A stretch of DNA of 34,293 nt, from the NCBI GenBank assembly GCA_009840175.1, contig VXOI01000009.1:1-34293 (forward strand), given 5' to 3'. Positions 5,821 to 34,293 of the stretch are shown piece by piece. Below the pieces are notes generated by a model, which did no database searches, was not told where the DNA came from, and worked only from the letters and a program-made list of their open reading frames with translations. Source of the stretch: Chloroflexota bacterium. Lineage in GTDB: Bacteria > Chloroflexota > Dehalococcoidia > Lucifugimonadales > UBA3495. Each line of letters starts with the position of its first letter. The stretch's first letter is position 1. A program made the position numbers and the translations under genes.

Positions 5821-7566
5821 CTACTGGGGTCGAGGCCAACGGCAAATAGCCCGTTCAGCAAGGCTAGCTGTTCTGCCGGCAATCTGCTGCGGACCCCACG
5901 TCTCATTTTGCTCAAGGACTTCCCTGGCAGTTCTGTAGATCGTCTCATTCCGTAGGCGGCTTCGAGCCTCGTCCCAGTCAGCAGATCCCTTTGTCGAGTT
6001 ATCAGATTGGCTCAGCGGTACGAGGTTTCCAAGCAGACCGAGAATTTGGTCTCGCTCCTCCTTGTCTTCGGGAAATTCATTAGCCCAGGTGCCTTTGAGC
6101 GATTGCGGAGCTAGGTGATCAACCGTAACCGCCTTGAGCTGCTCTGGCGAAAATGGGTTCGTTTTGTGAGCGTCGATCTCAAGCTCACACAGCACATAGC
6201 CGTCAAGGCGGCGTCCATAGAACGGCTTGCTTGGGATATCTCTTCGAAGCTGTTCGTCGTCTGGGAAGTCGATGGTTCTAGTCTGAAGGTCGGACACAAG
6301 ATTTCCTGGATTGCCGCCGTTCTTCCCCCATAAACTCTTGAACACCGCGTGGAGTCCGGTTGGCTCTCGACCTGAGAAGGCCCTCCTGACCAAAAAGGAC
6401 TCGACAATTCTCAGGCATTCGGCAGCGTCAGAGACACTCAGCTCACCTAACCGTTGAGCCCTGAGCAACTGGATCAGAAATGCGTAGGTCACACGGGGAG
6501 CAGGCATACGAGCGAGTCGTTCCACCCATGTCGCTATCTCTGGTGTTGATGAGTAGCTCACTCCAGCTGACAGGGCGTTGTACTCGGGCACGAATTGCCC
6601 GAGATCCTTGATGATGAGTTCCGCGGTTTTGGCGGAATCATCGATCCCTCGAAACTCTTTGTCCCAGTGATCGTTGAGTGCGCCGAACGCCTTAGCGACC
6701 GTCGCTCTGTCGTTGACCGTAAGGGTGAACGGGTAGTAATAATTGTCGAGCTGCTGTCGATTCGCGAACGACTTTTCGAAGGGATCCCAGTGCTCGTTGT
6801 ACAACCGCATCGCAGTGGTTGCATCAGCCGCGAGTCGCCTGAAGATCTCGTTCTTCACAAGATCACCGACAGTCAGAGGTTGACCCGGGCGGTTCAAACG
6901 ATTGAATACCTCGTTTGGGTGGTGTCGTTCAGCAATATTGATGGCTGCAATCTCGACTCTGTCGACGATTGTTAGTTCCAGGGCCTTCAGCGATTCGCGG
7001 TTAAAGCCGTCCTCGCCTAAGCACCTAGCGCGCACCTCTGACTGAGCTCGCTCAAGTGCCGCAGTCATCCTTCCTTGCCTGAAGCTAGCGCCAGATGGCA
7101 GGTTCCAGTTGACATCCAATTTTCGACACAGGGAGATGAACTCCGGCGTATCCGGTATGGTTGGGAAAAAGCGGGGCGTACCTCTCGTCGTTGTGCGAGT
7201 GGACATCAAGAATGCTTCTGCGACGTCTGTAGCATCGTTCGGGTGTCCATGCTCTTGCCATTCTAGCGCGACGGCGAGGAGCGCGAAGAACAGGGTTGTA
7301 ATCCGCTGCTGTCCGTCCAGCACGAGGAACTCCTCAAGGGTGCCTGTGCTAGGATTGCTAGCCACTTCGTGCTTCAAGATGATCGCGCCCAAGAAGAGAG
7401 CCTCGGATTCTCCCTCTTCGACTAGTCTTATATCCTCCCAAAACTCGTCAAGGTTTTTTGAGACCCACGAGAATCGCCGTTGATAGAGAGGTGCGGAAAG
7501 CCGTCGCTCAACCTCAAAGACACTACGTACGTTGACGCAACTGTCTTGCTGTCTCATTAACGTCAT
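5821..7566 (-). CDS. GmrSD-type DUF262/DUF1524 protein (type IV restriction-like)
   Basis: This 581-residue protein has an N-terminal DUF262 (ParB/Srx-like) domain with APLYQRRFSW near residue 25, LFLGAIIL near 58 and the hallmark LVLDGQQRITTL at 81-92. The C-terminal DUF1524 HNH nuclease-like domain shows VDHLAPQ near 482 and LLGNLVPLSQSDNSTKG near 515-530. In GmrSD and related enzymes the first domain binds NTP and gates the HNH domain, which cleaves modified phage DNA. I chose the internal ATG at 7566 because AAAGGAGGAATTTACAC stands right before it; the track ORF start at 7656 has no such site. It is a single-gene system here. Related DUF262 proteins also occur in other defence contexts such as BREX, so the substrate is not fixed. 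Confidence 0.9.
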   Translation of the reverse strand: MTLMRQQDSCVNVRSVFEVERRLSAPLYQRRFSWVSKNLDEFWEDIRLVEEGESEALFLGAIILKHEVASNPSTGTLEEFLVLDGQQRITTLFFALLAVALEWQEHGHPNDATDVAEAFLMSTRTTTRGTPRFFPTIPDTPEFISLCRKLDVNWNLPSGASFRQGRMTAALERAQSEVRARCLGEDGFNRESLKALELTIVDRVEIAAINIAERHHPNEVFNRLNRPGQPLTVGDLVKNEIFRRLAADATTAMRLYNEHWDPFEKSFANRQQLDNYYYPFTLTVNDRATVAKAFGALNDHWDKEFRGIDDSAKTAELIIKDLGQFVPEYNALSAGVSYSSTPEIATWVERLARMPAPRVTYAFLIQLLRAQRLGELSVSDAAECLRIVESFLVRRAFSGREPTGLHAVFKSLWGKNGGNPGNLVSDLQTRTIDFPDDEQLRRDIPSKPFYGRRLDGYVLCELEIDAHKTNPFSPEQLKAVTVDHLAPQSLKGTWANEFPEDKEERDQILGLLGNLVPLSQSDNSTKGSADWDEARSRLRNETIYRTAREVLEQNETWGPQQIAGRTASLAERAICRWPRPQ

Positions 7567-7826
7567 GTGTAAATTCCTCCTTTGGCAATAAGCCTTACGC
7601 CCACGCTCAATGACCTCCGGGTTGCCCCGAATACACGACCGACGCGAGAGAGACATTCTGGCGGTGATGGCAGTCTGGCTGCCCGGTCACTCGGTGGCTA
7701 CCGTTACCGGAGTTGGTGAGCAACTAATTCATTATGCCACTGCTATGCGAAACAGGTTGTCGCATGACCAATGTTTTTCAACCCAGCCAGCCATGGTCCG
7801 TGCCAAACACCACAAAGAATCGGAAA
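7567..7826. other. Intergenic, upstream of the DUF262 gene
   Basis: 260 bases between the DUF262 start and the end of the Pycsar effector gene. It holds the strong ribosome binding site of the DUF262 gene. No further gene was seen. Confidence 0.4.
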
Positions 7827-9276: not shown

Positions 9277-11196
9277 TTACCTGCCAAGACCCGTGGTACA
9301 TTGAGCGCGGACTGGACAGTTCTTACACTTGGGCGCACGGGCTGTGCAGACCATGGCCCCCAAATCCAGAAGAGCCTGATTCCACTTTGCATCCGCGCCC
9401 TCGGCTCCGGCCAGTTCATAAAGCGAAAGCCTGAGATCCCACTTAGGTTGCTTGGGACCCTTGCCTGACACCCTGCGGGCTATCCTCATCGTGTTGGTGT
9501 CCATGATCACGCTGGAACGACCAAAAGCAAAACAGAGAACCGCGGAGGCTATATAATCGCCCACGCCTGGGATGGCAACCATTCCCTGCCAGTTGTCAGG
9601 CACCTGACCGGCCGCCCTGTCCCTGATGAATTCGGCAGCAGCGCCAAGATTCGCGGACCGCCAGTGGAGTCCGAGGGAGGCCAACGAAGGTTCGAGGGCC
9701 TCCAGGTTGTCTAGGAAAGAATCAGGCGTCCCACCCAATCTGAGCAGTTCGTCAGCCACCTTTGCCACCTGCTCGGCCCTTGTCCGGTGAAGGCACATTT
9801 CAAGCAACAAGGTCTGCCAGGGATTCAGGTCAGAGCGCCTCCAGGGAAAGTCACGCCTGTTCCACTTGAACCATTGAATTAGGCTGTCCCGAAAGGAAAT
9901 CCTGTATTCGGCCCTGTTCTCTCTGACCACCGAGTGGACTGGACTGTCGCCAAGGACTTGTTTCACCGACGAAGCTATAGCCGAAGCGAGCATCGGGGGA
10001 ACTGCGTTGCCAATTTGCCGATACCTGCTGGACGGGTGTCCGGCAAACCTGAATACATCGGGAAAGGTTTGAATTCTGGCCGCCTCCCGTATAGAGAGGG
10101 TGCGGTCCTCTCTCGGATGGATGTACCAGTAACCATCCTTGGCTATATGAGCGGTAATGGTCCTGGACAGGCCTTCGAAGGACAACCTTACATACTTATC
10201 ATTGAAAATATCGGATCGGTATCTCCTGGAATCTTCGGGTACGTCCAGGTAGGTATCTCCGGGGTTCAGTTGAGAGTAAATCAGCGCGTCATCCGGTCGC
10301 ACCGCCCTAGTCACATGATCCCGAATCCGCCGGGATTCCTCGCCTCGCAATCCCTTTCTGAGCGACTTCGCCAGTGCTGAGGAAGGTGGACCCTCATACG
10401 CCTGGGTTTCGCCCCTGGTATCCGCAGGAACCACTGGAAGGTCACCGATGGCCTGCCCCACCGTCGGTTGCCTCCCCCGAGGTTTGGGCCACTCAAATTT
10501 CCCATTTCCTGCAATCCCGACTACAAAGAGACGTGAGCGATGCTGAGGAACACGATACTGCCACGCCTGCAGCATCTTCACGTGCACTTCATAGTCACGG
10601 CCCTTCAGCTCATCCATCAGGGCAACCAACAACGCCCCTCCCTGAGCTTGGGCGAAATCGGGAACGTTCTCAAATAGCATGGCCTTCGGATTCAACCTGT
10701 CAATAACGGAAAAGAAGCTCCGCCACAGGTCGGCCCTGTCATCGAGAACCCTGCGGTTGCCCGTCCTAACCAGGTTCCCAATCTTGGAGACGCCGGCCCT
10801 GGAGAACGGCTGGCAGGGAGGACCACCCGCCAAGAGGTCAACGTCTTCAATGCCCCATTCATCCAATTGGTGAATGAAGGCAGAGGGATCGGCAAGATCC
10901 CCCGTCCAGGTGAGACTCTGAATATTAGCGGCATGGGTTTCGGTCGAAACAGGGTCGAAGTCTGCCGCGGCGATGACGGAGAAGCCCGCCTCCTCCAATC
11001 CCAGGCTCAACCCGCCGGCGCCGCAGAAGAGGTCTATCGCCCAAGGGCGTGGGCGTTCTTCCAACCACGTGCGTACGGCATCCCCGTCGTTCGGGTCCGG
11101 CGACATCTGGTGAGGGACTAGTTTTATCCGTTCCCCCCGGTGGGTGGGCAGTCTGTAGGACGAAGGTTTTTGGGCAGTTTCGGAAGGATTATCCAT
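9277..11196 (-). CDS. Cytosine-5 DNA methyltransferase fused to a MIG/MutY-type DNA glycosylase
   Basis: The N-terminal part (residues 52-415) is a complete m5C methyltransferase. It has AIDLFCGAGG (motif I, 53-62), GGPPCQPFS with catalytic C128, FENVPD (175-180), QHRSRLFVVG (218-227), a target-recognition region and YRQIGNAVPP (392-401). Residues ~435-639 form an HhH-GPD glycosylase: FPWRR, then IPGVGDYIASAV (542-553), MDTNTMRIARRV (565-576) and a 4Fe-4S loop C617-X6-C624-X2-C627-X5-C633. The Y548 and D566 pair resembles the Methanothermobacter G:T mismatch glycosylase MIG, which is also linked to a GGCC methyltransferase system. Such an enzyme would remove thymine arising by deamination of the methylated base. 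No separate restriction nuclease is adjacent. It is divergent from the kinase/regulator genes at 11642-15511. A degenerate AGGA lies 13 bases before the ATG. Confidence 0.93.
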   Translation of the reverse strand: MDNPSETAQKPSSYRLPTHRGERIKLVPHQMSPDPNDGDAVRTWLEERPRPWAIDLFCGAGGLSLGLEEAGFSVIAAADFDPVSTETHAANIQSLTWTGDLADPSAFIHQLDEWGIEDVDLLAGGPPCQPFSRAGVSKIGNLVRTGNRRVLDDRADLWRSFFSVIDRLNPKAMLFENVPDFAQAQGGALLVALMDELKGRDYEVHVKMLQAWQYRVPQHRSRLFVVGIAGNGKFEWPKPRGRQPTVGQAIGDLPVVPADTRGETQAYEGPPSSALAKSLRKGLRGEESRRIRDHVTRAVRPDDALIYSQLNPGDTYLDVPEDSRRYRSDIFNDKYVRLSFEGLSRTITAHIAKDGYWYIHPREDRTLSIREAARIQTFPDVFRFAGHPSSRYRQIGNAVPPMLASAIASSVKQVLGDSPVHSVVRENRAEYRISFRDSLIQWFKWNRRDFPWRRSDLNPWQTLLLEMCLHRTRAEQVAKVADELLRLGGTPDSFLDNLEALEPSLASLGLHWRSANLGAAAEFIRDRAAGQVPDNWQGMVAIPGVGDYIASAVLCFAFGRSSVIMDTNTMRIARRVSGKGPKQPKWDLRLSLYELAGAEGADAKWNQALLDLGAMVCTARAPKCKNCPVRAQCTTGLGR

Positions 11197-11938: not shown

Positions 11939-12116
11939 CGGGGTCCCCACCGCTTCGCGGTCAGTCCAGGGCAATGATTTGACGCTCGAATCAGCAGGGC
12001 TTCCCTGAAGAGTTGGGCTCCAGTCCGCAGGGATAGACCGGTGAGGGGATATTACGTATGGAGTAGAAACTCCAGGGTCATGGACGAATGGCCTTGCCCC
12101 AAGGATGGGCATTGAG

Positions 12117-14303
12117 ATGACAGATACAGCGAATTCCACATCGGGGACCAGCACGCTTCGCCCGAGGGCCCGCATTCTTCGCACTCTTGGCGACGAACTG
12201 ATCAGCAGCGAAGCCGTCGCGCTGATGGAGCTCGTCAAGAACTCCTACGATGCCGACGCCACCAGGGTACTGGTGAGATTTCACGGGCCTCTCGAAATCG
12301 GGAAAGGGAAGGTCGAGGTCATTGACAACGGTCATGGAATGTCGCTGGAAACCATCCAGACAACCTGGATGGAGCCGGCCACCCTCTCCAGGAAACGGGA
12401 GCGGAGAAGCCAACGATTGGGTCGTCGCGTTCTGGGAGAAAAAGGGATTGGGCGATTCGCCACCTCACGCTTGGCCAACTTCCTTGAAGTGGTGACCCGT
12501 CGGGCGGAGTCAGAGCAGGAAACCCGAGTCTATTTCGACTGGGCGCAATTTGACAACGAGGGGAAATACCTGGACGAGGTTGAGGTTCTGTGGGAGGAGG
12601 AAGACCCCACGGAACTCGCACCGGGTGGTATCGTCGAACGACTGTGGGACTCCGGTGGAGAGCCGAATCTGGACGATCTGACCCACGGCACAATCCTCCG
12701 AATGGAGCAGTTGCGGAGCAACTGGAGCGGGTCTGAATTTGAGGATCTGCGGACCAGATTGTCGCGCCTGGTATCGCCCTTCTTTGGAGACGAGCTGTCA
12801 GCAAGGAATGACCAATTCGAGCTGTGTCTTGACCTTCCTCCGCCGTTCGAACAGCAGTCCGGTATCGTCGAACCTCCCGAACTGCTCCGTAGTCCTCATT
12901 ACGTATTGAAGGGCACGATAAATGCGGACGGTCGCTATGACTTTGACATCGGTCTGCGGGATGGAGGCAGCGAGGAGTCAATTCAGGGCGAATTCAACCC
13001 CAAAAGCCATGAACCGGAATGTGGTCCCATAGGAGTCGAACTGCGGGTTTGGGACCGGGACCCAACTTCCATGGCCGAACTGGTGGAGCGTCATTCGTTC
13101 CAATCGGTTTCCCAGGTCAGGGGGATGTTGGACAATGGCGCCGGCATCAGTATCTATCGGGACGGGTTCAGAGTGCTGCCCTACGGCGAACCGGACGATG
13201 ACTGGTTGCGGCTGGATATGCGTCGTGTGCAGAACCCCACACTTCGACTGTCAAACAACCAGGTCTTGGGCTACGTGTTAATCTCATCCGAGGGAAACCC
13301 GAATCTCAGGGACCAGAGCAATCGGGAGGGTCTCATCGAGGGCCCCCCTCTGGACGGCCTCAGAGAGTTGGTCAAGATGACCCTCCATGAACTTGAGGTT
13401 CGGAGGTACAAGCTCCGTCATCCAACTCCCCAACCCCGGCGGCGGCAAGCCGGGGGCCTCTTTGCCGACCTCGACCTGGCGACTGTCCGCGATTATGTGC
13501 AACGCCAACACCCGGATGACCATCATCTAAGGCAATTGGTTGGGAATGCGGAAAGGGAACTGGAAACCCGCGCCCAGGGAATTCAGGAAGTTCTTTCCCG
13601 CTACCACCGTCTGGCTGCTCTCGGACAGCTGATAGATGTTGTTCTGCATGACGGCAGAGCGCCTCTGGCAAAAATAAACAATGAGGCTGTCCTGGGACTG
13701 CGGGACGTAGACCGTTCGGGACAGGGCAGTATGGCCGCTATCGTGAAACTTGGGGACAGATTCAGAGGTATCGTGACCCAGTCCGACGCACTGGCAACCA
13801 TCTTCAGAAAAATCGAGCCATTTGGCGGAAGGAAGCGGGGGAGACCGGGATTGGTCTCGTTAGAGGAAGTGATAGCGAATGCCTTTTCCGTTCTCGACAC
13901 CGAGATTGCGGAAGTCGGAGTGGAGATAAGCCTGCCGGATACCAAGACCCAGGTCACGGTGGACCAAGCAGAGATTCAGCAGGTTGTCATCAATCTCCTA
14001 CAAAACAGTCTGCACTGGCTGCGTCATGTGCCCCAGGACACCCGACAAATCTCCGTTCACGTGCGGCGAAGAGAGCCGGATGAGGTGGAGGTCGTATTCT
14101 CAGATAGCGGGCCCGGTGTGAGTCCCGATTTCAGGGATCGAATTTTCGACCCGTATTTCTCCACCAAACCGGACGGAGTGGGACTTGGATTGACAATCGC
14201 CGGGGAGATAGTGAATGACTACTACGCAGGGGACCTCGAATTGCTGGAAAATGGTCCCCTTGCCGGAGCGACGTTCCGAATTGTCCTGCGTCGCCGGGTG
14301 TGA
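12117..14303 (+). CDS. Histidine kinase with two GHKL ATPase domains
   Basis: This protein of about 728 residues has two complete GHKL ATP-binding domains. The N-terminal one, of the Hsp90/MutL type, shows ELVKNSYDADA near residue 38, DNGHGM near 70 and GEKGIGRFA near 107. The C-terminal one, of kinase type, shows VINLLQNSLHWL, DSGPGV and FSTKPDGVGLGL in the last 110 residues. Before it lies an H-box-like segment, VVLHDGRAPLAKI, with H511 as the likely phospho-acceptor. There are no membrane segments, so it acts in the cytoplasm. Its stop overlaps the start of the receiver gene (GTGA). The first domain may sense DNA or protein by an ATP-driven clamp, as MORC/MutL-like ATPases in predicted R-M loci do. 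The start is uncertain: ATG 12117 has AAGGA eleven bases upstream, while ATG 12105 abuts AAGG. Confidence 0.85.
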   Translation: MTDTANSTSGTSTLRPRARILRTLGDELISSEAVALMELVKNSYDADATRVLVRFHGPLEIGKGKVEVIDNGHGMSLETIQTTWMEPATLSRKRERRSQRLGRRVLGEKGIGRFATSRLANFLEVVTRRAESEQETRVYFDWAQFDNEGKYLDEVEVLWEEEDPTELAPGGIVERLWDSGGEPNLDDLTHGTILRMEQLRSNWSGSEFEDLRTRLSRLVSPFFGDELSARNDQFELCLDLPPPFEQQSGIVEPPELLRSPHYVLKGTINADGRYDFDIGLRDGGSEESIQGEFNPKSHEPECGPIGVELRVWDRDPTSMAELVERHSFQSVSQVRGMLDNGAGISIYRDGFRVLPYGEPDDDWLRLDMRRVQNPTLRLSNNQVLGYVLISSEGNPNLRDQSNREGLIEGPPLDGLRELVKMTLHELEVRRYKLRHPTPQPRRRQAGGLFADLDLATVRDYVQRQHPDDHHLRQLVGNAERELETRAQGIQEVLSRYHRLAALGQLIDVVLHDGRAPLAKINNEAVLGLRDVDRSGQGSMAAIVKLGDRFRGIVTQSDALATIFRKIEPFGGRKRGRPGLVSLEEVIANAFSVLDTEIAEVGVEISLPDTKTQVTVDQAEIQQVVINLLQNSLHWLRHVPQDTRQISVHVRRREPDEVEVVFSDSGPGVSPDFRDRIFDPYFSTKPDGVGLGLTIAGEIVNDYYAGDLELLENGPLAGATFRIVLRRRV

Positions 14304-17532: not shown

Positions 17533-20500
17533 TCAGGCCAGCGCCCAACCGTCCGACAGCACCTCCGCTTGTTCCAGCACGGTTAGAATAGCCTTTTCTT
17601 GCTTGTCGGGAGGATAGCCATGTTTGCGCAGGATACGCCGGACCAAGACACGGAGCTGCGCTCGGACGTTCTCTCGCAGCGTCCAGTCGATGGTGACGTT
17701 GCTACGGACGGTTTCCACCAGCTCGCGGGCGATGGCGCGGAGTGTCTCGTCACGCAGCATCTGAACGGCGCTGTCGTTGGTTCCCAGGGCATCGTAGAAA
17801 GCTAGCTCATCATGCGTCAGGCCAAGCTTTTCACCCCTAGCGCTGGCTTCCCGCATCTCGCGGGCCAGTTGGATCAGTTCTTCAATCACCTGCGCAGCTT
17901 CAATTGCGCGGTTTTGATAGCGGCGGAGGGTCTGTTCCAACATCCCGGCGAAGGAGCGGGCTTGAACCACGTTGGTGCGCCGACGACTTGCCACTTCGCC
18001 CCGGAGCAGCTTTTGCAGCAACTCCACCGCCAAGTTGCGCTCAGGCATCCCCTGAACCTCGGCCAGAAATTCGTCGGACAGCACCGAGATGTCGGGTTTG
18101 TCCAAGCCGGCGGCGGCGAAGACGTCAATCATGCCTTCGGACGCCACCGCACGGGAAACTATCTGCCGTACCGCCAAGTCCAAGTCTTCCTCCGGGCGCG
18201 CCTCCCCCGCCGCTCGCTTGGACAATGCCGCTCGCACTGCCTGGAAGAACCCCACATCGTCGCGGATGCGGAAGGTTTCTACGTGCGGCACAGCCAGGGC
18301 AAAGGCTTGTGAGAGTTCACGGACTGCAGCCATACAACGATCCTTGCCGCTTTCCTGGGCCAGGATGTGCTCTTGTGCGGGAGGAAGCAAACCCAAACGC
18401 TCCGCTGGTGCGCCAGTAGTCCATTTGGACCAGTCGAAGCCGTGAAACAGCGCACAGCATACGTCGTACTTTTCCAGCATCGCGGCTACTGCCTCTTCCT
18501 TGTCGATGGCGGTGCGCCCCGTTCCTCCGCTCTCGGTGTAAGTGACCAATGCTTGCCGCAGATCGTTAGCCAGCCCAAGGTAGTCCACCACCAGCCCGCC
18601 CGGCTTGTCCTTGAACACCCGGTTCACCCGAGCGATGGCCTGCATCAGCCCATGGCCACGCATCGGTTTGTCCAGGTACATGGTGTGCAGGCTGGGCGCG
18701 TCGAAGCCGGTCAGCCACATATCCCGCACCAGCACGATGCGGAAGGGGTCGTCAGGGTCCCGGAAGCGGTTGCCCAGCGCCTCCCGCCGGGCCTTGTTTC
18801 TCACGTGCTTCTGCCACTCCGGCGGGTCCGATGCCGAACCGGTCATCACCACCTTGATGTTGCCCTTGGCGTCATCATCATCGTGCCACTCCGGGCGTAG
18901 ACGAGCCAGCTCGTTGTAGAGGTCAACGCAGATGCGCCGGCTCATGCACACCACCATCGCCTTCCCTTCCAGTACTTCCAGACGCTGCTCGAAGTGGTCC
19001 ACAATGTCCTGGGCAATCTGCTTGACCCGGTTTTCGGCGCCGACGACGGCCTCCAACTGCGCCCACTTGGTCTTCAGCCGCTCCTTGCGCTCGATTTCCT
19101 CGCCCTCGGTTGCCTCCTCAAAGTCAGGGTCAATAGTGGGCCGCTCGCTTTCATCCAGTTCCAACCGGGCCAGGCGGCTTTCGTAGTGGATGGGCACCGT
19201 GGCCCCATCCTCAACCGAACGCTGGATATCGTAGATGCTGATGTAGTCGCCGAACACCGCCCGGGTGTTGGCGTCATGCAACTCGATGGGCGTGCCGGTG
19301 AAGCCAACGAAAGAAGCGCTGGGCAGGGCGTCCCTCATGTGCCGGGCGTAGCCGTCGATGAAGTCGTACTGGCTGCGGTGGGCCTCGTCGGCGATGACGA
19401 CGATGTTACGCCGCTCCGATAGAGTGGGATAGGTGTCGCCTCGCTCCTCGGGGAAGAACTTCTGGATGGTGGTGAACACCACACCCCCCGCGTTTACAGA
19501 CAGTTTTTCCCGCAGGTCGGCCCGGCTTTCCGCCTGCACCGGAGGCTGGCGCAACAGGTCCTGGCAGCGGGAAAATGTGGTGAAGAGCTGGTCGTCCAAG
19601 TCATTGCGGTCGGTGAGAACCACGATGGTGGGATTCTCCATAGCCTGCTCGCGGACGATGGCGCCGGCGTAGAAGGCCATGGTCAAGCTTTTTCCCGAAC
19701 CTTGGGTGTGCCAGACTACCCCGATTCGGCGGTCGCCCGGTTCTCCTCCTGACCTTCGTCCTGTTTCATACCTGCCCCGAATGGGTCGCGATGCAATCCT
19801 CTGCCCTTCCCGCTGTAGATCCGCTGCCCGCAGGGTCTCACTCACGGCGGCGCGAACGGCGTGAAACTGGTGGTAGCCGGCCATCTTCTTGACCAGCCGC
19901 CCGCTGCCGTCGTCATCAAAAACTACGAAATCTCGCAGCAGCGCCAGACATCGCTCTGGGTGGCAGGCACCCTCCAGCATCACTTGCAACTCAGTCAGGT
20001 CAGGACCGGCCAGGGTCTCGCCCGTAGTAGTGCGCCAGGGCTTGAACCACTCACGCCCGGCCCCCAAGGCGCCGATCCGGGCTTCAAGGCCGTCGGAAAC
20101 CATCAGCATTTCGTTCATGGAGAACAAGGAGGGCAGTTCCGACTGGTAAGTCTGAATCTGTTGCCAGGCGCTCCAGATGGTAGCGTCCTCGTCGGAGGGG
20201 TTCTTCAATTCTATAATGCCTAAGGGCAGGCCATTCACAAACAGGACGACGTCGGGGCGGCGGGTGTTCCGGTTCCCGCCCACCGTGTCGGTTAAGCTAA
20301 ATTGGTTGACCACCAGCCAATCATTGGCCGCCCAATCGTCGAAGTCGATGACCTTGGCCGGCTCGCCCCGCATGTTGCCGTCGGCAGAGCGATACTCCAC
20401 GTTGACGCCGTTGACCAGCATCCGGTGAAAGGAGCGATTGCGGGCCTCCAACGTCGCCCCCTCAGGGTGGGTTAGCTTGCGGAAGATGTCCTCCAGAGCA

Positions 20501-20700
20501 TCAGCGGGCAGGCCGCGGTTAATCTGGGCGAGGGTATTTCGCAACCGATGCTCTATGATCACCTGACTGTAATCGTTACGTTCGAAGTTAGGCGTCTCAG
20601 GAGCGATGTCAGGGCCGTACATCACGCGCCAACTAAGACCCTCCAGCCAAGCGAGTGCTGCCTGTTCGACAACATACTCTGAGAGTAGAGCTCTGTTCAT
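17533..20700 (-). CDS. hsdR: Type I restriction enzyme motor/nuclease subunit HsdR
   Basis: The 1055-residue protein has the normal length and order of HsdR. The N-terminal nuclease domain has [22 protein letters not shown] with D150 and E164-L-K166. The superfamily 2 motor shows [12 protein letters not shown] near 340, [21 protein letters not shown] and GFTGTPI in the first lobe, and [21 protein letters not shown] and [10 protein letters not shown] in the second. A long helical C-terminal part follows, which contacts the methyltransferase. It translocates DNA with ATP and cleaves unmethylated foreign DNA away from the target. All motifs look intact. Its ATG overlaps the stop of the HEPN-like gene by ATGA, so it is the last gene of a six-gene operon. 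Confidence 0.96.
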
Positions 20701-21353
20701 GGCTCCACCTCTTCCATGGCTTCTTCCCCAAAGGTACCTATCAATTTCCCACCGAGATCTCGATAGGCTGGGTGGTCGACAGCAAACAACAACTCGCTAG
20801 CATAGTAATCCTGCTCACCTACGGTGATGATACCGTACTGCGCGTCAATAGCCATATCGAAATCCCTTTCTTGAGCCGGAGGCTGCTGTGGAGTTCGATC
20901 AAGTATCGCTTGTTCGAGCGCAGCTTCGGGGTCGCCAACCTCAAAGAGGACCGAGAATATCCAAAGTGCAGCGTTTCGAGCGATCTGAAGGGTGATTATG
21001 TCGGGTATTCCCTTCTGACCACCGTGATACTGCTCGTTCCGTTGACGGTGCGCCCAAATGATGTGCGATTTTTCTATTGACCAAGTAAGGCTTCTTTTCT
21101 CCAGTTCCTTCTCGAAGAACCCAAGCTTGGTGAGATAGTCTTGCATCCATTGGTTGACATCATCCCTTTTGTACTGGCGCCCTCCTCGTTGGACCGGATG
21201 CAGCGTAAGGTAGGTCGTGATTGCCACCTCAATGGCATTATCGAAGCTGATGAGTGCAATGCTGCGACCGAAATCGTCTGCTTCGCGCAGGTGACTTTCC
21301 GCATGAACCATCAACTCGAACGGACCAATGGCCCATGGGGGGAGAGAGGTCAT
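20697..21353 (-). CDS. HEPN-like protein inside the type I operon
   Basis: 218 residues, mainly helical. The first ~150 fit a HEPN domain: [19 protein letters not shown] forms an early helix and [12 protein letters not shown] carries R105-N106-x3-H110, the RNxxxH metal-free ribonuclease motif. It is not the classic HepT RX4HXY, because GG follows the histidine. The last ~60 residues ([20 protein letters not shown]) look like a small beta-rich domain of unknown role. The gene overlaps hsdS by four bases upstream and hsdR by four bases downstream, so it is an obligate part of the operon. PrrC, a tRNA anticodon nuclease with a HEPN-type core, lies at the same place in EcoprrI. A second toxic layer released when the R-M system is inhibited is my inference. 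Confidence 0.72.
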
Positions 21354-22993
21354 GGTGCTTCCTCAGTTAGCAAACATTTCGGTTGCCTTACCTCTAACCC
21401 TCCCGACACCAGTCTCGGCAGCAGCACATCCCGCTGAGCGGCCAAAGAGCGAGAGCCGAATTCGTTGGTCCTGAGCTTCTGTTCCAACGGTAGCACCCAT
21501 TTAGCGAACCTGCCGACTAGTTCGTCCGTTGGGGATATTACCGACAGGGTCTCGAACTGCTTTCTGGTAATCGCGCCGAAAACCGTACCTGTTTGCTCGT
21601 ACCGCTCAAACTCGGACTGCATAGCCCAGGCTGAATAGTAGGTGAATGCACCGGACTCCGATTTGTGTCGCAATGCGGCTACTCCTCTGCCGATGCAGCA
21701 TTTCTCCCAAGCCATGTTCAGGGCACCAACGGGTGCTCTAACACTGACCAATGTATCGCCTCCTTCGGCAATTCGATTAGGTGACGAGCAATATTTTCGG
21801 TTGCTGGGAAATCGCGCCCCAAAGTCGGTGCTACCTTGAAAGAACGGCAGTCCTTCGCCATGGTCATTGTAAGTGTTTCCCGGTGGTGATTGCCCCATCG
21901 TGAGATTAAAGCAATCCCCTAGCGACTTCACCTCCCACCCTTCCGGTATCTCGCCCAACTCCGAGTCCACGAGCCGGTCAGGAAACAGGTCCCACAGCTC
22001 CGGCGGGAGGTACGGTTCCCGTCCTTCCAGCTTGGCGCGGACCGGGCCGAAGTCCACGAACCAGTCCTCAAAGATGGCACGGGCCATGGCTTCCAGCGTT
22101 TCGTTCATCCGCCGGTTGAGCTCAATCTTGTCGTCCAGCGTACCGAGGATGTGAGCGATTGAGCGTTGTTCAGGTAAGGGCGGGAGCATGAACATAAACT
22201 GCTTGATCCGATCCGGGGACGTATGTTTCACCGTCGTTCCGGTCGCACTCGCGAGGATCTCGTGGCGATAGTCTGCGGTGCACATGACGTAGTAGAGGAA
22301 TCTCGTATCAACGGCATCGGTTCCCTTGAGGGAAACCTTTCCAAGACGTTGGTTGTGCAAATAGCGAAGTCCCTCTGGGCCTTCGGGTACGAGTGCCGGG
22401 TAACCAAGAGTGTCCGAAAGTTTGCTGAGGTCGGTCATCGTGACCAGCAAATCACCTGTGCTGAGGACAAACTCTTCGGGAACATACCCATCGTAAAATT
22501 TGAACTTCTCACCCTTAAACCCTCCGCCTACGGCAAAGTTACCAGGCGTAAGCAGCACATCTCCTCGGGGTTCGTCGTGGATGTTTTCACCCTTGAAAGC
22601 GAACCCGTGCTTTATATCAACCAGGTCTCCGATAGACACCTGGGCCCACCCACCGTAACCCTTTGACGTCGATTTGAGCCGCATGTCCTGCACGACCACG
22701 TAACTGCGTTCAATCGCCCGTTGAAAACTCTCCGGCAACCTTGCCCAGTCGTGGACCTGAATCGAGATAGGGATGTTGGACTGCTCTAATGCCTCGACGA
22801 GTTCGACGTATTCGTTGCCCAAGGGTTCCAGGGTAGGGCCGCGCAACACCAGATCCAGGTCGCTGCCGTCGTGGCTCCGGCCGCTAACGCGGCTGGCGCA
22901 GGCCCACACTTCGGCGTCGGGCACGTACTCGTGCACTAGCGCATCGAGTTGTTCCCGGTAGCGGAGGAGGAAGTCCAAGCGGTCAGTCATCAT
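21350..22993 (-). CDS. hsdS: MNT nucleotidyltransferase fused to type I specificity subunit HsdS
   Basis: 547 residues, about 100 more than a usual HsdS. Residues 1-105 are a minimal nucleotidyltransferase: CASRVSGRSHDGSDLDLVLRG has the (G)S-X10-DXD pattern with S34, D45 and D47, but alanine at the glycine position. From residue ~110 it is HsdS: a first target-recognition domain (VSIGDLVDIKHGFAF), the conserved linker LPPLPEQRSIAHILGTLDDKIELNRR, a second domain from IPEGWEVKSLGDCF, and the closing LPLEQKLR part. HsdS reads the DNA target for HsdM and HsdR. The MNT part is joined to the partner HEPN gene, which overlaps by ATGA, so this is a HEPN-MNT pair built into an R-M system. Start ATG 22993 has GGAG five bases upstream. 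Confidence 0.88.
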   Translation of the reverse strand: MMTDRLDFLLRYREQLDALVHEYVPDAEVWACASRVSGRSHDGSDLDLVLRGPTLEPLGNEYVELVEALEQSNIPISIQVHDWARLPESFQRAIERSYVVVQDMRLKSTSKGYGGWAQVSIGDLVDIKHGFAFKGENIHDEPRGDVLLTPGNFAVGGGFKGEKFKFYDGYVPEEFVLSTGDLLVTMTDLSKLSDTLGYPALVPEGPEGLRYLHNQRLGKVSLKGTDAVDTRFLYYVMCTADYRHEILASATGTTVKHTSPDRIKQFMFMLPPLPEQRSIAHILGTLDDKIELNRRMNETLEAMARAIFEDWFVDFGPVRAKLEGREPYLPPELWDLFPDRLVDSELGEIPEGWEVKSLGDCFNLTMGQSPPGNTYNDHGEGLPFFQGSTDFGARFPSNRKYCSSPNRIAEGGDTLVSVRAPVGALNMAWEKCCIGRGVAALRHKSESGAFTYYSAWAMQSEFERYEQTGTVFGAITRKQFETLSVISPTDELVGRFAKWVLPLEQKLRTNEFGSRSLAAQRDVLLPRLVSGGLEVRQPKCLLTEEAP

Positions 22994-23002
22994 CGCACTC
23001 CG

Positions 23003-24745
23003 CTAGTTCTCTGACTGGTATTCCAGCAGAGATGATCTGCCTATTACGTCAAGAATTCGGATAGTTGCCTCCCGCCCGTCCGCATCGGTCATCCGCAGGC
23101 GCTCTGCAAAGGTGAACGAAACGGGCTGCTGCTTTCCTTGGTTAATCGCGATGTTGGAAGCGTACAGGTAGGTCCGGTCATGAGTGTCGCGGATGGGGTT
23201 CAATCTGCCCTTGACAACAGGCAGGTAACCCGTTCCCTCGGCGAAGATAACACTTCCACCTCCGCGGAGAGGTTGCAGGTCGATGGATAAAGACCCGTGA
23301 CTAGGGACCCACTCTCGCTCCACGTATCCGCAGCAGCCTGTGGCGGCGGCAAACACCGTCATGGGGAGATGGGTAGTGTACAAGTCCACGGAAGCTTCGC
23401 CGTTTTCGTCCGTGGCTGCATCCTTCCAAGTCTTGTTCGGGAATAGAGCAAGCACGGCGGCCCCTGGCAGGGGTTGACCGCCGGAGCGCACAGCAATAAT
23501 AGCTCGGGCGGGGCTTTGGTCCAGGACTGCTGCCGGAACGGTGAGGCGGACTTCCGAACCGTCAATGAGTTGATAGTCAGGTATTTTGCCGGACAGTTCA
23601 CGGGTTTCGCGCAAAATGATCTGAACGCCGTCTCCCCGCCGTTCCATAATATACTGTCTATCCTCCGCACCACCGATGCCACCCACTGGCATACGCGTCA
23701 GCACGGAGGTCAATGCTTCGTTACGGGTCGCCTGACGGTCAGTCATACTGTCAAGGGTCAAATTGTTTGGGAGCGAACCGGGCGACTGGATCTCCACGCG
23801 GTCTTCAAAAATTGACAAGCGTATCTTGCTGGAGCGTATTGAATAGTCGCGATGGACAACAGCGTTGACTATAGCCTCGAAAAGTACCCTCTCACTGTAT
23901 TGCGGCAGATTCACGCGGGCAGGGTCTTTTCGGGACGCCACCCGTATATTTCTCAAGGCAAAGGCGACGGCTTCACCAATTTGCTGGTTAATCGGTCCGA
24001 CTATCTCCTGTGCGTCAATTTGGCCGGATGCCCGGTCCAACCCTCTGTAGCGAGTTGCCGTGATGCCGGCGTTGGCAAGCCATTGTTCGGGATGCCGAGT
24101 GCACAGCAGCACACCGGCCACGGTGGCGCGTAGAATCCCGGCATCGTCGTTGGCCAACATGGCCAGCTTCGTCAATCCTGCCTCGGGTTCAGCCGCTCCT
24201 TCCACGCTCAACAAGGGTCTCCAGAGCATCTCGTCCAAGGTATTAAAACCGGTTCCGGGAATTGTCTGCTCGTCGTAGGAAGAAAACCGCCCCTGGCCTC
24301 TCCGTTGAGCAAGGCGCAGGCGCTCATCGCTGGTCATTCTGCGCTTTGTACCGCCCACTCGAATATAGCTGCCACCGGAGCTGTCATACTGCGTGTCGCC
24401 CTGCGTGACCTCTACCAATAGCAACCGCTTACCATCGACCTCCCGGTGATAGGTCCGGATGCGAACCGCCGGCTTGATGGTGTCGGTGCTTACCTCAACC
24501 AGCAGGGAGTCCAATGCCACCATCTGCTCACGTGACATACCCTGCACTTCACCTTCATCGGTTACGCCACAAAGCAGCATACCGCCGTCAGCATTGGCGA
24601 AAGCCGCTATTTCGTCAGACCAGTCGCTGCGGCTCGGCCCTGTCGGGCGATTTCCAGCGAATTCTATCGCCTTGAACTCCCAATTGCTGTCTTCACCAAG
24701 CTGCAAACGAGAGATGATTTCGTCGTTATCGAACGTCATGATCAT
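23003..24745 (-). CDS. AlbA_2/Schlafen-type ATPase-like protein in the type I operon
   Basis: 580 residues. The N-terminal ~130 residues are an AlbA_2 (Schlafen core) domain with WEFKAI at 22-27, EIAAFANADGGMLLCGV and GGSYIRVGGTKRRM. The middle, about 180-400, is the HATPase_c_4-like part of such proteins (FEAIVNAVVHRDYS, then SPGSLP and RNEALTSVL). The last ~150 residues are an unusual beta-rich region, starting at AVRSGGQPLPGAAVLALF, like a carboxypeptidase regulatory or invasin-type fold. Family members are often called transcription regulators; Schlafen cores elsewhere are RNA- or tRNA-cleaving. The start overlaps the stop of the peptidase gene (ATGA; a second ATG lies six bases on), and hsdS follows after nine bases. 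Its role in the R-M complex is unknown. Confidence 0.82.
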   Translation of the reverse strand: MIMTFDNDEIISRLQLGEDSNWEFKAIEFAGNRPTGPSRSDWSDEIAAFANADGGMLLCGVTDEGEVQGMSREQMVALDSLLVEVSTDTIKPAVRIRTYHREVDGKRLLLVEVTQGDTQYDSSGGSYIRVGGTKRRMTSDERLRLAQRRGQGRFSSYDEQTIPGTGFNTLDEMLWRPLLSVEGAAEPEAGLTKLAMLANDDAGILRATVAGVLLCTRHPEQWLANAGITATRYRGLDRASGQIDAQEIVGPINQQIGEAVAFALRNIRVASRKDPARVNLPQYSERVLFEAIVNAVVHRDYSIRSSKIRLSIFEDRVEIQSPGSLPNNLTLDSMTDRQATRNEALTSVLTRMPVGGIGGAEDRQYIMERRGDGVQIILRETRELSGKIPDYQLIDGSEVRLTVPAAVLDQSPARAIIAVRSGGQPLPGAAVLALFPNKTWKDAATDENGEASVDLYTTHLPMTVFAAATGCCGYVEREWVPSHGSLSIDLQPLRGGGSVIFAEGTGYLPVVKGRLNPIRDTHDRTYLYASNIAINQGKQQPVSFTFAERLRMTDADGREATIRILDVIGRSSLLEYQSEN

Positions 24746-25350
24746 CCCACCTCGCGTTGCTGGAAAGGCTGGCCCAGCTTTTGAGCTACTTCTTCGGGTA
24801 GGTCAGGGAAATGGTCTCGCAATACCACTGGCTCGACTTCGCCAATGCGAAGCCCCAAACGGCAACGGATGTGCTTTACCGCTGGAATCAAACCTGCGAT
24901 AAACGGTTCCAGTAGTGATTGCGCTTCTCCATATGCTCCTTGGCGATGTTCAACTTCGGGTACACGAGAGTTCTGGTACCACGAGGCAAGACCCTCTTCA
25001 AGCCAGTTGGTGTTACGTCCGGCGGTAGCAGGCTCCCAGGGGTCCAGCAAGTGAACGCATTCGTGGGCAAGTTGCCAACGGGCTCGGGCTGGGTCCGTCA
25101 ACGCATTTCCGCTCAGGCGGATGATGATGTGTCCGAGTCTTCCGTTACCATCGCCAGGATACCAAAGATGAGGAGGCCTATCCGGCGCCGGGTCGATGTC
25201 AATTCCGGTGACGCAATATGAGCGGTCTCTAGGACCGAATAAGTCCTCGAGTTCCGCCAAAAACCGACTGGTACATTCGGGAAGCGTGAGTTCCCTTTCG
25301 CCTCCTTCCGCATCGGGTTGAATCAAGAAAAGAGACCCTAACTTATTCAT
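24742..25350 (-). CDS. HExxH zinc metallopeptidase-like protein in the type I operon
   Basis: 202 residues from ATG 25350, which overlaps the hsdM stop by eight bases (ATGAATAA). The track ORF starts 246 bases further up, but that part is antisense-type sequence inside hsdM and has no start signal. [13 protein letters not shown] at 92-104 gives the HExxH zinc motif (H96, E97, H100), and [11 protein letters not shown] at 115-125 gives a downstream glutamate as in gluzincins. It lacks a signal peptide and membrane segments, so it acts in the cytoplasm. I know no exact family. Its place as second gene in the operon suggests that it cleaves a component or a phage protein, for instance to release the HEPN or MNT parts. 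That is inference. Confidence 0.75.
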
Positions 25351-26938
25351 CGCCGAACCCCAGCCGTTCCAGGTTCTCGGCGATGGCAGTGTCCAGACGA
25401 TTGGCGTCGTTCTGCTGCTCACGCCATTGGGCGGCGAGGCGCGCCATCTTCTCCTGGAAGGGTTCGCCGTCGTCAGGCTGCGGCTCAGCGCCCACGTAGC
25501 GGCCCGGTGTGAGGACGTGGCCATGCTTGCCGATTTCCTCCTGTGATGCGCTCCTGCAGAAGCCGGGTACGTCTGCGTATTCCGTATCGCAGTCATTATT
25601 CCGCCAAGCGCGGTAGGTACCTGCGATACGGGTTATATCCTCGGCGGACAAGTCCCGGTGGGTGCGGTCCACCATGTAACCCAGCTTCCGGGCGTCAATG
25701 AACAGCGTCTCCCCGGTGCGCGTTTCCCCCGCGATGCGGCCCTTGCGGAGGAACCAGAGGCAGGCAGGTATCTGGGTGGAGCGGAATAGTTGCCCCGGTA
25801 GGGAGATGATGCAGTCCACCAGGCCCGCCTCAACAATGCCCTTACGGATTTCACCCTCACCCGACTGATTGGACGACATGGAGCCGTTAGCCAGCACAAA
25901 CCCAGCGATGCCCCGGGGCGCCAGGTGGTACAGGAAGTGCTGTACCCAGGCGAAGTTGGCGTTTCCTGCTGGCGGGACGCCATACTGCCACCGCTGGTCG
26001 TCCCGCAATCGTTCTCCCCCCCAATCGGAGACGTTAAAGGGTGGGTTGGCCAGGATGTAGTCGGCCCGCAGGTCGGGGTGGCGATCGTTGTGGAAGCTGT
26101 CGCCAAAGGCAATCTGCCCTTCGATACCTCGAATGGCTAGATTCATCCGGGCCAACCGCCAAGTCGTGTAGTTGGATTCCTGTCCATAGATGGAAAGGTC
26201 CCCTCTGGCCCTTCCGCCGTTGCCGTTCCCGGTGGCGTGGGCGCGTATGAAGTCAACGGATTGAACGAACATCCCGGAGGAGCCGCAGCAGGGGTCGTAG
26301 ACCCGGCCATGGTACGGCTCCAACATCTCCACTAGCAGCCGTACCACCGCGCGGGGGGTGTAGAATTCGCCGCCCTTGCGCCCTTCGGCCAATGCGAACT
26401 GTTCCAGGAAGTATTCGTACACTCGGCCCAGCACGTCGGTGGCCTGAGTCTCGGCGCCACCGACTCTGATATTGCTTACTAGGTCCACCACCTGGCCTAG
26501 TCTCTGTTTGTCGAGGGCATCCCTGCCATACTCCTTGGGCAATACGTCCTTGAGCGCGGGGTTGTCCCGCTCCACTGCGGTCATGGCATCGTCCACCATT
26601 CTGCCTATGGTGGGCTGTCGAGCTTGGTTTTTCAGGTGTTGCCAGCGTGCCTCGGGCGGTACCCAGAATATGCTTTGGGCGCGGTATTCGTCGGGATCCT
26701 CCGGGTCGGCGCCCTGGTCTCGCTCGTCCTCTAGCTTGGCGTAGGCTTCCTCGAAGGCGTCAGAGATGTACTTGAGGAAGATGAGGCCCAGGACGACGTG
26801 CTTGTATTCGGCAGCGTCCATGCTGCCCCGGAGGGCATCGGCCATTCGCCAAAGTTCAGCGCGGTAGTCCGCAACCGCATCGCCGCCCGAAGCAGCCATT
26901 GGACCGCCGCTATTCCGTTTCCTTCTTGCCGTCGTCAC
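25343..26938 (-). CDS. hsdM: Type I DNA methyltransferase subunit HsdM
   Basis: 531 residues. The N-terminal helical domain ([19 protein letters not shown]) is followed by the N6-adenine methyltransferase core: [39 protein letters not shown] (AdoMet motif I) and [17 protein letters not shown] with the NPPF catalytic motif. The C-terminal part ([12 protein letters not shown], then LTPGRYVG) is typical. It methylates adenine in the target set by HsdS and protects host DNA. It is the first gene of the operon. Its start is GTG 26938 with AAGG overlapping; ATG 26899 is an alternative. The stop overlaps the peptidase start. Confidence 0.95.
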
Positions 26939-29997: not shown

Positions 29998-30409
29998 GGC
30001 AACCCTCACATGAGGAAGCACTATCCCACCCTATGATAACAAAATGGCTCTCAGCCAACCGTCAGCTTCTGCCCTGTATCCGACGCTTTCTCGATCCGGT
30101 CAATAAACCGATGCAGCCCCATGACGTGTCAAACATAGGCATCGGCACCCGGCTTTCCCCATTTCTGGTTGTCTCGGGGAACAGAGTGGACAACTGCTCG
30201 ACGTTGAACGAGTCGCCCACCGGAAAGTCCACCAAACTGGAAACATCAAGGACCCGTCACATCAGAATCCCGGTGAGGGTGTCATCGGCCGTTCACCGGC
30301 CAATATCGCTTATTGGTCAGGCCCTCGCCGACAACAGCGGGCGTTTTTTCTTCAGGTGTGTGAGCTGCCAACCGGATTGGAGCGACGCGAACCCACGAAA
30401 CAAGTCTGT
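29998..30409. other. Intergenic at the right edge of the island
   Basis: About 410 bases without a gene. It holds repeat copy 4, hairpins GGCCG-TTCAC-CGGCC and CCAATA-TCGCT-TATTGG near 30288-30315, and a possible plus-strand terminator, CGCC...GGCG followed by TTTTTT, near 30350. Base composition rises sharply to the right of it. Confidence 0.45.
30211..30230 (-). repeat. Dispersed repeat copy 4 (opposite orientation)
   Basis: The minus strand reads GGACTTTCCGGTGGGCGACT. It shares ACTTTCCGGTGGG with copy 3. Confidence 0.45.
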
Positions 30410-32806
30410 TCACCCAGTTCTCTGTCCCCCTTCCGGCGCATCCGGCTTTTCCATCCGGTACCCCACCCGTGGCTCGGCGAAGATGTAGGTGGGGTTGGCG
30501 GCGTCGTCCCCCAGCTTGCGCCGCAGGTGCTTCAGGTGGGTGCGCAGCGCCCGCAGGCTCCCCGGCTTGCCCGGACTCCACACCCGCCTGAGCAGCCGGT
30601 CATGGGTCACCACCCGCCCGGCCTCCACGGCCAGCGCCGCCAGCAGGTCGAACTCGATGGGGGTCAGCGCCGCCGGGCGTCCCGAGACCGTCACGCTGCG
30701 AGCGGCGTAGTCGATGGTCAGGTCGCCCAGCGCGAAGGGCTCCGCCGGCGCCGGGAACTCGGGTTCCCCGACCCGACGCAGGGCCGCCCGCACCCGGGCC
30801 ACCAGCTCCGTGGGCGAGAAGGGCTTGGCGATGTAGTCGGCGGCCCCCTGCTCCAGGAGCCTGGCGACCACCTCGTCCCGGCCGTAGGCCGACAGGAAGA
30901 TCACCGGGATGCGGGAGACGGCAAAAAGGTCCCCCATCAGCTCCTCCCCATCGCGCTCCGGCAGCATCAGGTCCAGCAGGGCCAGGCGGGGGCAGTGTTC
31001 CGCCATCAGCGCCAGCGCCTCCTCCGGGTCTGCGGTCACCACCGGCCGGAAGCCGGCGGTGGAGAGGGCGTCCCGCACGGACCTGAGCGCCAGAGGATCG
31101 TCGTCCACCACCAGGACCGTTCCGGCGCATTGACCGTCTCCCGGGGAGCGGGCGGCGCGACGGGCCGGTTCCGTCTCCGGGACCACCGGCAGGGTGAAGG
31201 CGAACCTGGCCCCCAGGCCCGGCCCGTCGCTCTCGGCCCGGATGCGGCCCCCGTGGGCCTCCACGATGCCCTTGCAGATGGCCAACCCCAAGCCCGTGTT
31301 GCCACCCGAACCGGAACCGTCCATCTCTGTGCCGGAGAACCTGCGGAACAGGTGGGGCAGGTCCTCGGCGGGTATTCCCCGGCCCCGGTCGGCCACCGAG
31401 ACCTCGACGTGGCCGGCCTCCCGCACGGCGGACACCCGGATGACCGAGTCCCCCGGGGAGTGCCGGGCCGCGTTGGACAGCAGGTTGCCGATGACCTGGA
31501 CGATGCGCTGCCGGTCGGCCAGCACCAGAGGCAGGTCCGGCTCCAACTCCATAGCCAGATGGTTCCGGCCGCCGGAGCTGGCGAAGACGTTCCGGGCCCG
31601 GTCCACCAGCGTGGCCACCTCCGCCGGCTCCGGGTCCACCGGCAGCGTGCCCGTCTCGATGCGGGCCACGTCCAACAGGTCGCCGATGAGCTCCCGCATG
31701 TGGTCGGTCCGGTCGGCGATGATCCGGAAGAACTGGCGCATCTCGGCCGGGTCCAGCCCGCCGGCCGACTCCAGCAAGGTGGCGATGGAGCCCTTGACCG
31801 CGGCCAGGGGCATCCGCAGCTCGTGGCTGACCATGGCCAGGAACTCGGCCCGCAGCCGCTCCTGCTCCTCCAGGGGAGTCAGGTCCTGCATGGTGACCAC
31901 CACAGTTTCCACTTCCCCTTCCCCGGACGGAGCGCCGGTGCGGATGGGCGTGGCGTTGAGCAGCACTCTCACGCTCCTTCCGTCGGGGGCCGCCATGACG
32001 ATCTCCTCGGCCCGCACCGCCTCGGTGGAACCCAGCAACCGCGCGATGGGGAACTCCGCCAAGGAGAACTCGCTGCCGTCGGCGCGGCGCACGGTGATCA
32101 GCCCCAGCAGGTCCTCGGGCTGCTGGCCGGGGTCGCACAGGCCGTCGACGATCCGGCGGGCCTCCCGGTTGAAGGACACCGAGGCCCCGGTCTTCACGTC
32201 GAAGACCACCACGCCCACCGGGGAGATGTCGATGAGGGTCTCCAGGCCCGCCCGGGCACGCTGCTCCTCCCGGTGCCGGCGGGTGTTGGCGATGACCAGG
32301 GCCGCCTGGGAGGCGAACATCACCATGGTCTCCTCGTCTTCCTGAGTGAACTCCCGGCCCGGTTCGTCGCTGCCCACCAGGATGGTGCCTGACCGCGCGC
32401 CCTGGTGCAGTATTGGGGCCGCGATGAAGGCGGTGATGGTTACGGGGGATCGGAACTCCGCAAGGCCGATGGACCCGGTGAACTCCTCCAGCCGGCCCCA
32501 CCGCAGCGGTCCCGTAAGGGCGTTCAGGTACTCGAAGAACACCTGGCCCTGGGGGGTCTGCCACAGCCGCTCCACGTCGCCGGGTTCGAAGCCCAGGACC
32601 AGGTGGTCCTCCACCCGGCCCGCATCGTCCAGGGTGATGATGGCGGCGTAGGGCGCGTCGGTCAGGGACCGGGCGCTGTCCATCACGGCTCGCAGCGCCG
32701 TGTCCACGTCCAGGCTCTCGTTGATGCGGAGACTGGCCGCGCTCAGGCGGGAGAGGCGGTCTCCCGGCGGCTCCGTTCCCCGATACGGCTGGCCCTCATT
32801 CTCCAA
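30410..32806 (-). CDS. Hybrid histidine kinase-receiver-winged-helix regulator
   Basis: 798 residues in one chain. A GAF domain (about 25-180) is followed by a PAS-like domain (about 185-310), then HisKA with MVSHELRMPLAAVKG, HATPase_c with NLLSNAARHSP, DRGRGIP and NTGLGLAICKG, a receiver domain with LALLDLMLPERDG and a lysine in YIAKPFSP, and an OmpR-type winged helix (LTPIEFDLLAALA, then LRTHLKHLRRKLGDD and VGYRME). Sensor, phospho-receiver and DNA-binding output are thus fused, so it may act without a partner. No membrane segment is present, so the signal is probably cytoplasmic. The TTG start at 32806 has GGGAGGT six bases upstream. The gene is visibly more GC-rich than the island and belongs to the host backbone. 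Confidence 0.93.
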   Translation of the reverse strand: MENEGQPYRGTEPPGDRLSRLSAASLRINESLDVDTALRAVMDSARSLTDAPYAAIITLDDAGRVEDHLVLGFEPGDVERLWQTPQGQVFFEYLNALTGPLRWGRLEEFTGSIGLAEFRSPVTITAFIAAPILHQGARSGTILVGSDEPGREFTQEDEETMVMFASQAALVIANTRRHREEQRARAGLETLIDISPVGVVVFDVKTGASVSFNREARRIVDGLCDPGQQPEDLLGLITVRRADGSEFSLAEFPIARLLGSTEAVRAEEIVMAAPDGRSVRVLLNATPIRTGAPSGEGEVETVVVTMQDLTPLEEQERLRAEFLAMVSHELRMPLAAVKGSIATLLESAGGLDPAEMRQFFRIIADRTDHMRELIGDLLDVARIETGTLPVDPEPAEVATLVDRARNVFASSGGRNHLAMELEPDLPLVLADRQRIVQVIGNLLSNAARHSPGDSVIRVSAVREAGHVEVSVADRGRGIPAEDLPHLFRRFSGTEMDGSGSGGNTGLGLAICKGIVEAHGGRIRAESDGPGLGARFAFTLPVVPETEPARRAARSPGDGQCAGTVLVVDDDPLALRSVRDALSTAGFRPVVTADPEEALALMAEHCPRLALLDLMLPERDGEELMGDLFAVSRIPVIFLSAYGRDEVVARLLEQGAADYIAKPFSPTELVARVRAALRRVGEPEFPAPAEPFALGDLTIDYAARSVTVSGRPAALTPIEFDLLAALAVEAGRVVTHDRLLRRVWSPGKPGSLRALRTHLKHLRRKLGDDAANPTYIFAEPRVGYRMEKPDAPEGGQRTG

Positions 32807-33176: not shown

Positions 33177-33475
33177 TGCTGGCCGCGTCGTGGCGACGGC
33201 TCCCCGCTCGCCTGCTGCCGGCCCTGGCCGCTGCCCTGCTGTGGCCGCCGCATCAACAGAAACAAACTCTCCCCGTACAACAGCATTATCACACGACCAC
33301 AACGGAAACGACATTGACTGCAGACATAGCGGGATCCGGGACCAGATCGGACACGGTGTGGTTGGCTTTAGCGTAAACACCGGAGATGAACCGAAACCGG
33401 GTCAGAAAGAAGGCGCCTGGCACACCGCACCAAGGCACGCGAACGCACCGGAAACTCGAACAAGGAAGGGCTCTG

Positions 33476-34200
33476 ATGACATCGATCAAATCTCACGCAC
33501 CGGCTTTCAACTTCAAGGGTAGGACCTTGACTCTGGCCGCGTTTATGGTGGCGCTCATGGCCGCCGTTCTATGGGTTCCCGGCAACCATTCAAGCGCCAA
33601 TAACGCCATCGTTGTGAACCTAGAGGTAGAGCAAGGATACGAGAGCGCCCTTCTCACCTGGAACGACCTGAGCAAACACACCGATATCGCTGGCTTCCAG
33701 TACAGATACCATAATCCGAACCACGCCCGTGGCTGGACCGACATACCCAACAGCAACCGTTACAGTACCGTCTACAAGGTACAGGGTCTGAATCCCAGAA
33801 GTAATTACTCGTTCAAATTGCGGGCGGTGGATGAGTCCGGCAAACTGGTAGGACATCAGTCGGACGACATATACGTGGACATTCCAGATGTCCTAAATTT
33901 GACAGGCGTGGCTGGCGACGGTCACGTTGTGCTGGATTGGACCGGGGATTCACAATATGAGCCGGACCGGGATGGCGCTGTTTTCTGGTACCGGGTCAGG
34001 ACCGGCGCCACCAGCACGTACCCTGAAGGGTGGAAATCGTTGGACCCGCGCAAGCGTCGTATCGAAGGTCTATCCAACGGCACCGGTTACGCTTTTCAAG
34101 TGCAAGAAGGGTCACGCGATTACGCCAACGCCATATCCAACGAATGGGTGGGCTGGCCGGAAGACACGACGCCACCGACCGTCGATACAATAACGAACCA
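33476..34200 (+). CDS. Secreted fibronectin type III protein, 3' end lost at contig edge
   Basis: From ATG 33476 (AAGGAAGGG upstream) the protein has a signal peptide-like N terminus (TLTLAAFMVALMAAVLWVPG) and two FN3 domains. The first covers ALLTWNDLSKHTDIAGFQYRY to YSFKLRAVDESG; the second covers VVLDWTGDSQ to GYAFQVQEGS. A closing linker WPEDTTPPTVDT suggests that another domain should follow. FN3 proteins of this kind are exported and take part in surface binding. The track start at 33386 is 30 codons longer and has no site. The last five residues of the track ORF (KLIHI) come from adapter sequence, so the true C terminus is unknown. Confidence 0.8.
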
Positions 34201-34202
34201 GA

Positions 34203-34293
34203 AACTTATACACATCTGACGCTGCCGACGATCTTACCCGTGTATATCTCGGTCGTCGCCGTATCATTAAAAAAAAAATCGGGCGGGGGGGTG
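34203..34293. other. Illumina Nextera adapter, index, P5 end, poly-A/poly-G (not genomic)
   Basis: CTTATACACATCT (34205-34217) is most of the Tn5 mosaic end. GACGCTGCCGACGA (34218-34231) is the Nextera read adapter. Then come eight bases TCTTACCC, and then GTGTATATCTCGG...GCCGTATCATT, the reverse complement of the P5 end with two mismatches. A run of ten A and a G-rich tail follow, as in reads that run past the insert. The eight bases differ by one from TCTTACGC, the reverse complement of an index I recall as S517. Confidence 0.93.

Follow-up and report, generated by a model that had tools for sequence, protein, structure and literature searches.

We found that the end of the window, a stretch of 34,293 bases from a Chloroflexota genome, is almost certainly an untrimmed Nextera adapter read-through and thus a technical artefact, with an FN3 gene that probably resumes after the scaffold gap that follows (probability about 0.98 for this reading). 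The last 95 bases (34199-34293) come from one poor-quality read and are not bacterial DNA. The window comprises bases 1-34293 of scaffold C19, which is 35,920 bases long and belongs to an assembly of 268 scaffolds (4.31 Mb, 94.65% complete). Its end is a contig end within a scaffold, since a 10-N gap occupies 34294-34303 and a further 1,617 bases come after it. The first-pass annotation had placed an adapter at 34203-34293 and stated that the contig ends there. Our results bear out the adapter nature of this segment but move its start, most likely to 34199, and the statement about the end is true of the contig but not of the scaffold, which goes on after ten Ns.

Adapter elements at the contig end

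The i5-side Nextera read-through was aligned without gaps to positions 34199-34268, where 56 of its 62 fixed bases were identical (6 mismatches). A scan of the window, covering either strand, gave a runner-up position with 31 of 62 matched and 31 mismatches, and the binomial chance of a 56/62 agreement is about 2e-27 per position. Read in order up to the window end, the terminal segment is CAGAAACTTATACACATCT GACGCTGCCGACGA TCTTACCC GTGTATATCTCGGTCGTCGCCGTATCATT AAAAAAAAAA TCGGGCGGGGGGGTG. All of its elements lie on the + strand. The mosaic-end complement, CTGTCTCTTATACACATCT, is matched at 15 of 19 bases by 34199-34217; the four mismatches all fall in the initial six bases (CAGAAA for CTGTCT) and the final 13 are perfect. 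Immediately 3' of it, at 34218-34231, the complement of A14, the read 1 transposase adapter, is present as GACGCTGCCGACGA with 14/14 identity (adapter sequence as given in PMC3906532). The inner 27-mer CTTATACACATCTGACGCTGCCGACGA (34205-34231) is without mismatch. Next comes the i5 index TCTTACCC (34232-34239), which agrees at 7 of 8 bases with the reverse complement of S517, TCTTACGC, one of the 18 S5 indices; the probability that a random 8-mer lies this near any of the 18 is 0.7%. The P5 complement GTGTAGATCTCGGTGGTCGCCGTATCATT is matched at 27 of 29 bases (34240-34268, two mismatches), and it is succeeded by ten A's (34269-34278) and by the G-rich no-signal tail TCGGGCGGGGGGGTG (34279-34293). 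A's after P5 and then G's are the usual mark of reading beyond the end of a library molecule, the G's being dark cycles in two-colour chemistry. The adapter thus sits at the contig end and faces outward, with the 10 Ns directly after it, and the previously proposed order of mosaic end, read adapter, 8-base index, P5 and poly-A/poly-G tail with a few errors is confirmed.

Because four of the initial six mosaic-end bases are mismatched, the exact boundary between genomic and adapter sequence is uncertain, the genomic part ending at 34198 or extending up to 34204. When all 19 bases of the mosaic end were searched for in the window with as many as 3 mismatches allowed, nothing was found because this copy carries four, an example of how a strict screen overlooks such an adapter. 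The mosaic end plus the A14 complement is the sequence given for trimming read 2 (PMC3906532), and the read therefore came from the i7 side. Compared with a Nextera or Nextera XT read-through (CTGTCTCTTATACACATCTGACGCTGCCGACGA followed by i5 and P5; first part per PMC3906532), the segment shares the element order, the inner 27-mer, the length and identity of the index, P5 and the tail, but differs in its damaged initial six mosaic-end bases and in three further one-base errors, of which the index has one and P5 two.

The course of events that best explains these data begins with a Nextera molecule sequenced from the i7 side as read 2, its insert being too short to fill the read. The read ran through the insert into the mosaic end, A14, the i5 index and P5, and then off the molecule into A's and dark-cycle G's. 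Damage to the initial mosaic-end bases probably let the adapter escape trimming, and the assembler would have taken the adapter read as the dead-end tip of a contig, which paired reads presumably joined to the next contig across a nominal 10-N gap.

Adapter copies elsewhere in the assembly and in public genomes

Sampling the contig ends of the assembly by pattern, which yields tallies for part of the assembly, we found the i7-side Nextera adapter at the outer ends of C147 (5-32), C259 (33-60) and C51 (29464-29486), with damaged mosaic ends in each. In the same sampling, poly-G or poly-C was present at the ends of C19, C27, C39, C61 and C100 and next to 10-N gaps in C40 and C72; at the far end of C19 (34294-35920, locus L024) this artefact spans about 110 bases. 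In C147 a perfect 34-base palindrome, CCCTAACCCTCCCCCTCGAGGGGGAGGGTTAGGG, adjoins the adapter at 39-72. This is its single occurrence in the genome when up to 3 mismatches are allowed, a partial sequence similar to it adjoins the adapter in C51, and the hairpin may account for the assembly break in C147. Among 196 relatives, the i5-side pattern was found in G125 only, on two contigs, and the i7-side pattern in two others, G127 and G056.

Adaptors are counted among common contaminants (PMC10898089). When 84,980 species genomes were scanned for exact matches, the inner 27-mer was found in at least 120 public records and at least 126 copies, and the 126 copies among the matches listed lie a median of 14 bases from the outward end. 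These contaminated ends resemble the present one in that the adapter, with the same 27-mer, faces outward at a contig end, but the present copy adjoins a 10-N gap within a scaffold and has a damaged instead of an intact mosaic end. In all four adapter copies of our assembly the initial six mosaic-end bases carry 3 or 4 mismatches, whereas in the public copies listed they are intact in 119 of 126 and carry more than 2 mismatches in none, a comparison (4 versus 126) that is indicative only, as the public copies derive from few studies with shared origin and were picked by an exact match to the inner 27 bases. Most simply, the public contigs would have been built from untrimmed reads and the present assembly from trimmed ones, in which only reads with a damaged adapter start survived; that these reads escaped trimming is suggested by the damage at the start of 4/4 copies here, unlike the 126 public copies listed. 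Adapter read-through as the cause, also proposed in the first-pass annotation, is thus supported by the element order, the index identity, the A/G tail, the sibling artefacts and the outward position of the 27-mer in public records. Reads leading from the adapter into genomic DNA, named there as counter-evidence, have no counterpart in the scaffold, which continues only across the N gap.

The FN3 gene and the scaffold gap

The biological 5' part of the FN3 gene consists of 271 codons on the + strand, from the ATG at 33386 to the last native codon, AAC (N271), at 34198. Its residues 78-159 match Pfam fn3 (PF00041; E=7e-12, 45.8 bits against a curated cut-off of 25). The gene end KLIHI* had been called non-biological and this holds, because the false stop codon TGA (34217-34219) spans the junction of the mosaic end and A14. 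Frame arithmetic places the start of codon 272 exactly at 34199, so that if the adapter starts there Q272 is probably adapter-derived too, and the false end is likely the six residues QKLIHI* rather than five.

After the gap, one frame beginning AYDNDDIIQVRVMFSEPVDV runs through 125 codons without interruption; it is open from 34305, its stop codon ends at scaffold position 34682, and the other two frames reach a stop within 20 codons. The 125 residues are similar to Ig-like repeats which, at other places in the genome, occur in one reading frame with FN3-type repeats. Repeats similar to the segment were found in this genome and also in 13 of 58 relatives. In C152 and C197, matches to both gene halves lie in frames of equal length (1685 and 1523 codons, respectively), and we read them as one protein each. 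The native part ends in DTTPPTVDTITN, which is like the beginning of an Ig-like repeat from a relative (L035, DTTPPTVSSITITSDPGDDDTFGPGDDIEVTVTFSE). Aligned by eye, the left side of this repeat is like the native end and its right side is like AYDNDDIIQVRVMFSE, with which the post-gap frame starts; some 8 residues would be missing by this alignment. Judged from reading frame and domain similarity, the FN3 gene probably has about 125 more codons on the far side of the gap and ends at scaffold position 34682. By itself the post-gap segment had no Pfam match, and NCBIfam and PDB searches of it returned nothing convincing. A search of the genome_contigs collection for an FN3-protein orthologue reaching across the gap gave no hit; across 40 genomes (its own and relatives) there were only weak FN3-repeat matches, with none in the single same-genus genome. 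A second copy of the contig-end DNA was not found in the genome itself.

Three other explanations were weighed. With 13 bases intact of the mosaic end, itself a hyperactive form of the ends that Tn5 has in nature, one might envisage that the genome contains a genuine transposon end of the Tn5 type. This is exceedingly improbable and we rejected it: inward of the 19-bp end, where transposon DNA was looked for, come the synthetic A14 oligo, the index and P5 instead, and no other copy was found in the genome except for the i7-type adapters at contig ends. A different possibility has the scaffold join wrong, the post-gap piece coming from another Ig-like repeat protein of this genome. Several proteins with FN3 and Ig-like repeats are encoded there (C114, C152, C197, C257), and such repeats could mislead scaffolding, but the post-gap DNA is on the right strand and its frame begins just at the point of the domain break. 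Assuming a linker of the length seen in two relatives, only about 8 residues would be missing, as estimated by eye. We therefore regard a wrong join as unlikely.

It is also conceivable that the adapter is present but the FN3 gene truly ends nearby, with the false stop close to the real one, as the lack of a Pfam domain in the post-gap frame might suggest. Against this, the native end looks like the start of an Ig-like repeat, the post-gap sequence is the continuation of such a repeat, and only one of the three post-gap frames stays open, which makes a nearby end quite unlikely. An adapter read-through that interrupts a gene probably resuming after the gap remains our preferred reading.

Other contents of the window and consequences for the assembly

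The rest of the window holds a defence-like island at 3076-26938. It comprises an SMC_N ATPase (3076-5157), GmrSD (5824-7656), a C5 DNA methylase (9280-11196), a protein with two HATPase domains (12105-14300) and the type I restriction genes hsdR (17536-20700), hsdS (21353-22993) and hsdM (25346-26938), with a Schlafen/AlbA protein (23006-24745) between hsdS and hsdM. Near the left end, a serine recombinase of 260 codons on the - strand (125-904; Resolvase and partial Recombinase domains) is apparently truncated. At 30356-32806, an open + frame of 678 codons faces a 798-codon gene on the - strand for a GAF/histidine kinase/response regulator protein; Pfam gave no match for the + frame, which is probably a shadow frame arising in GC-rich DNA.

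On balance, we lean towards the view that the adapters which persist in trimmed assemblies have been selected for damaged initial bases, so that screens anchored on an intact mosaic end miss them, and that they can make false gene ends beside scaffold gaps. Gap-side adapters with a damaged mosaic end can slip past screens that are limited to sequence ends or to exact matches. The contig ends and gap edges of this assembly need removal of adapter and poly-G, bases 34199-34293 should be masked, and the gene end QKLIHI* is unfit for protein databases. The finding adds nothing biologically new; what it affects is data quality.
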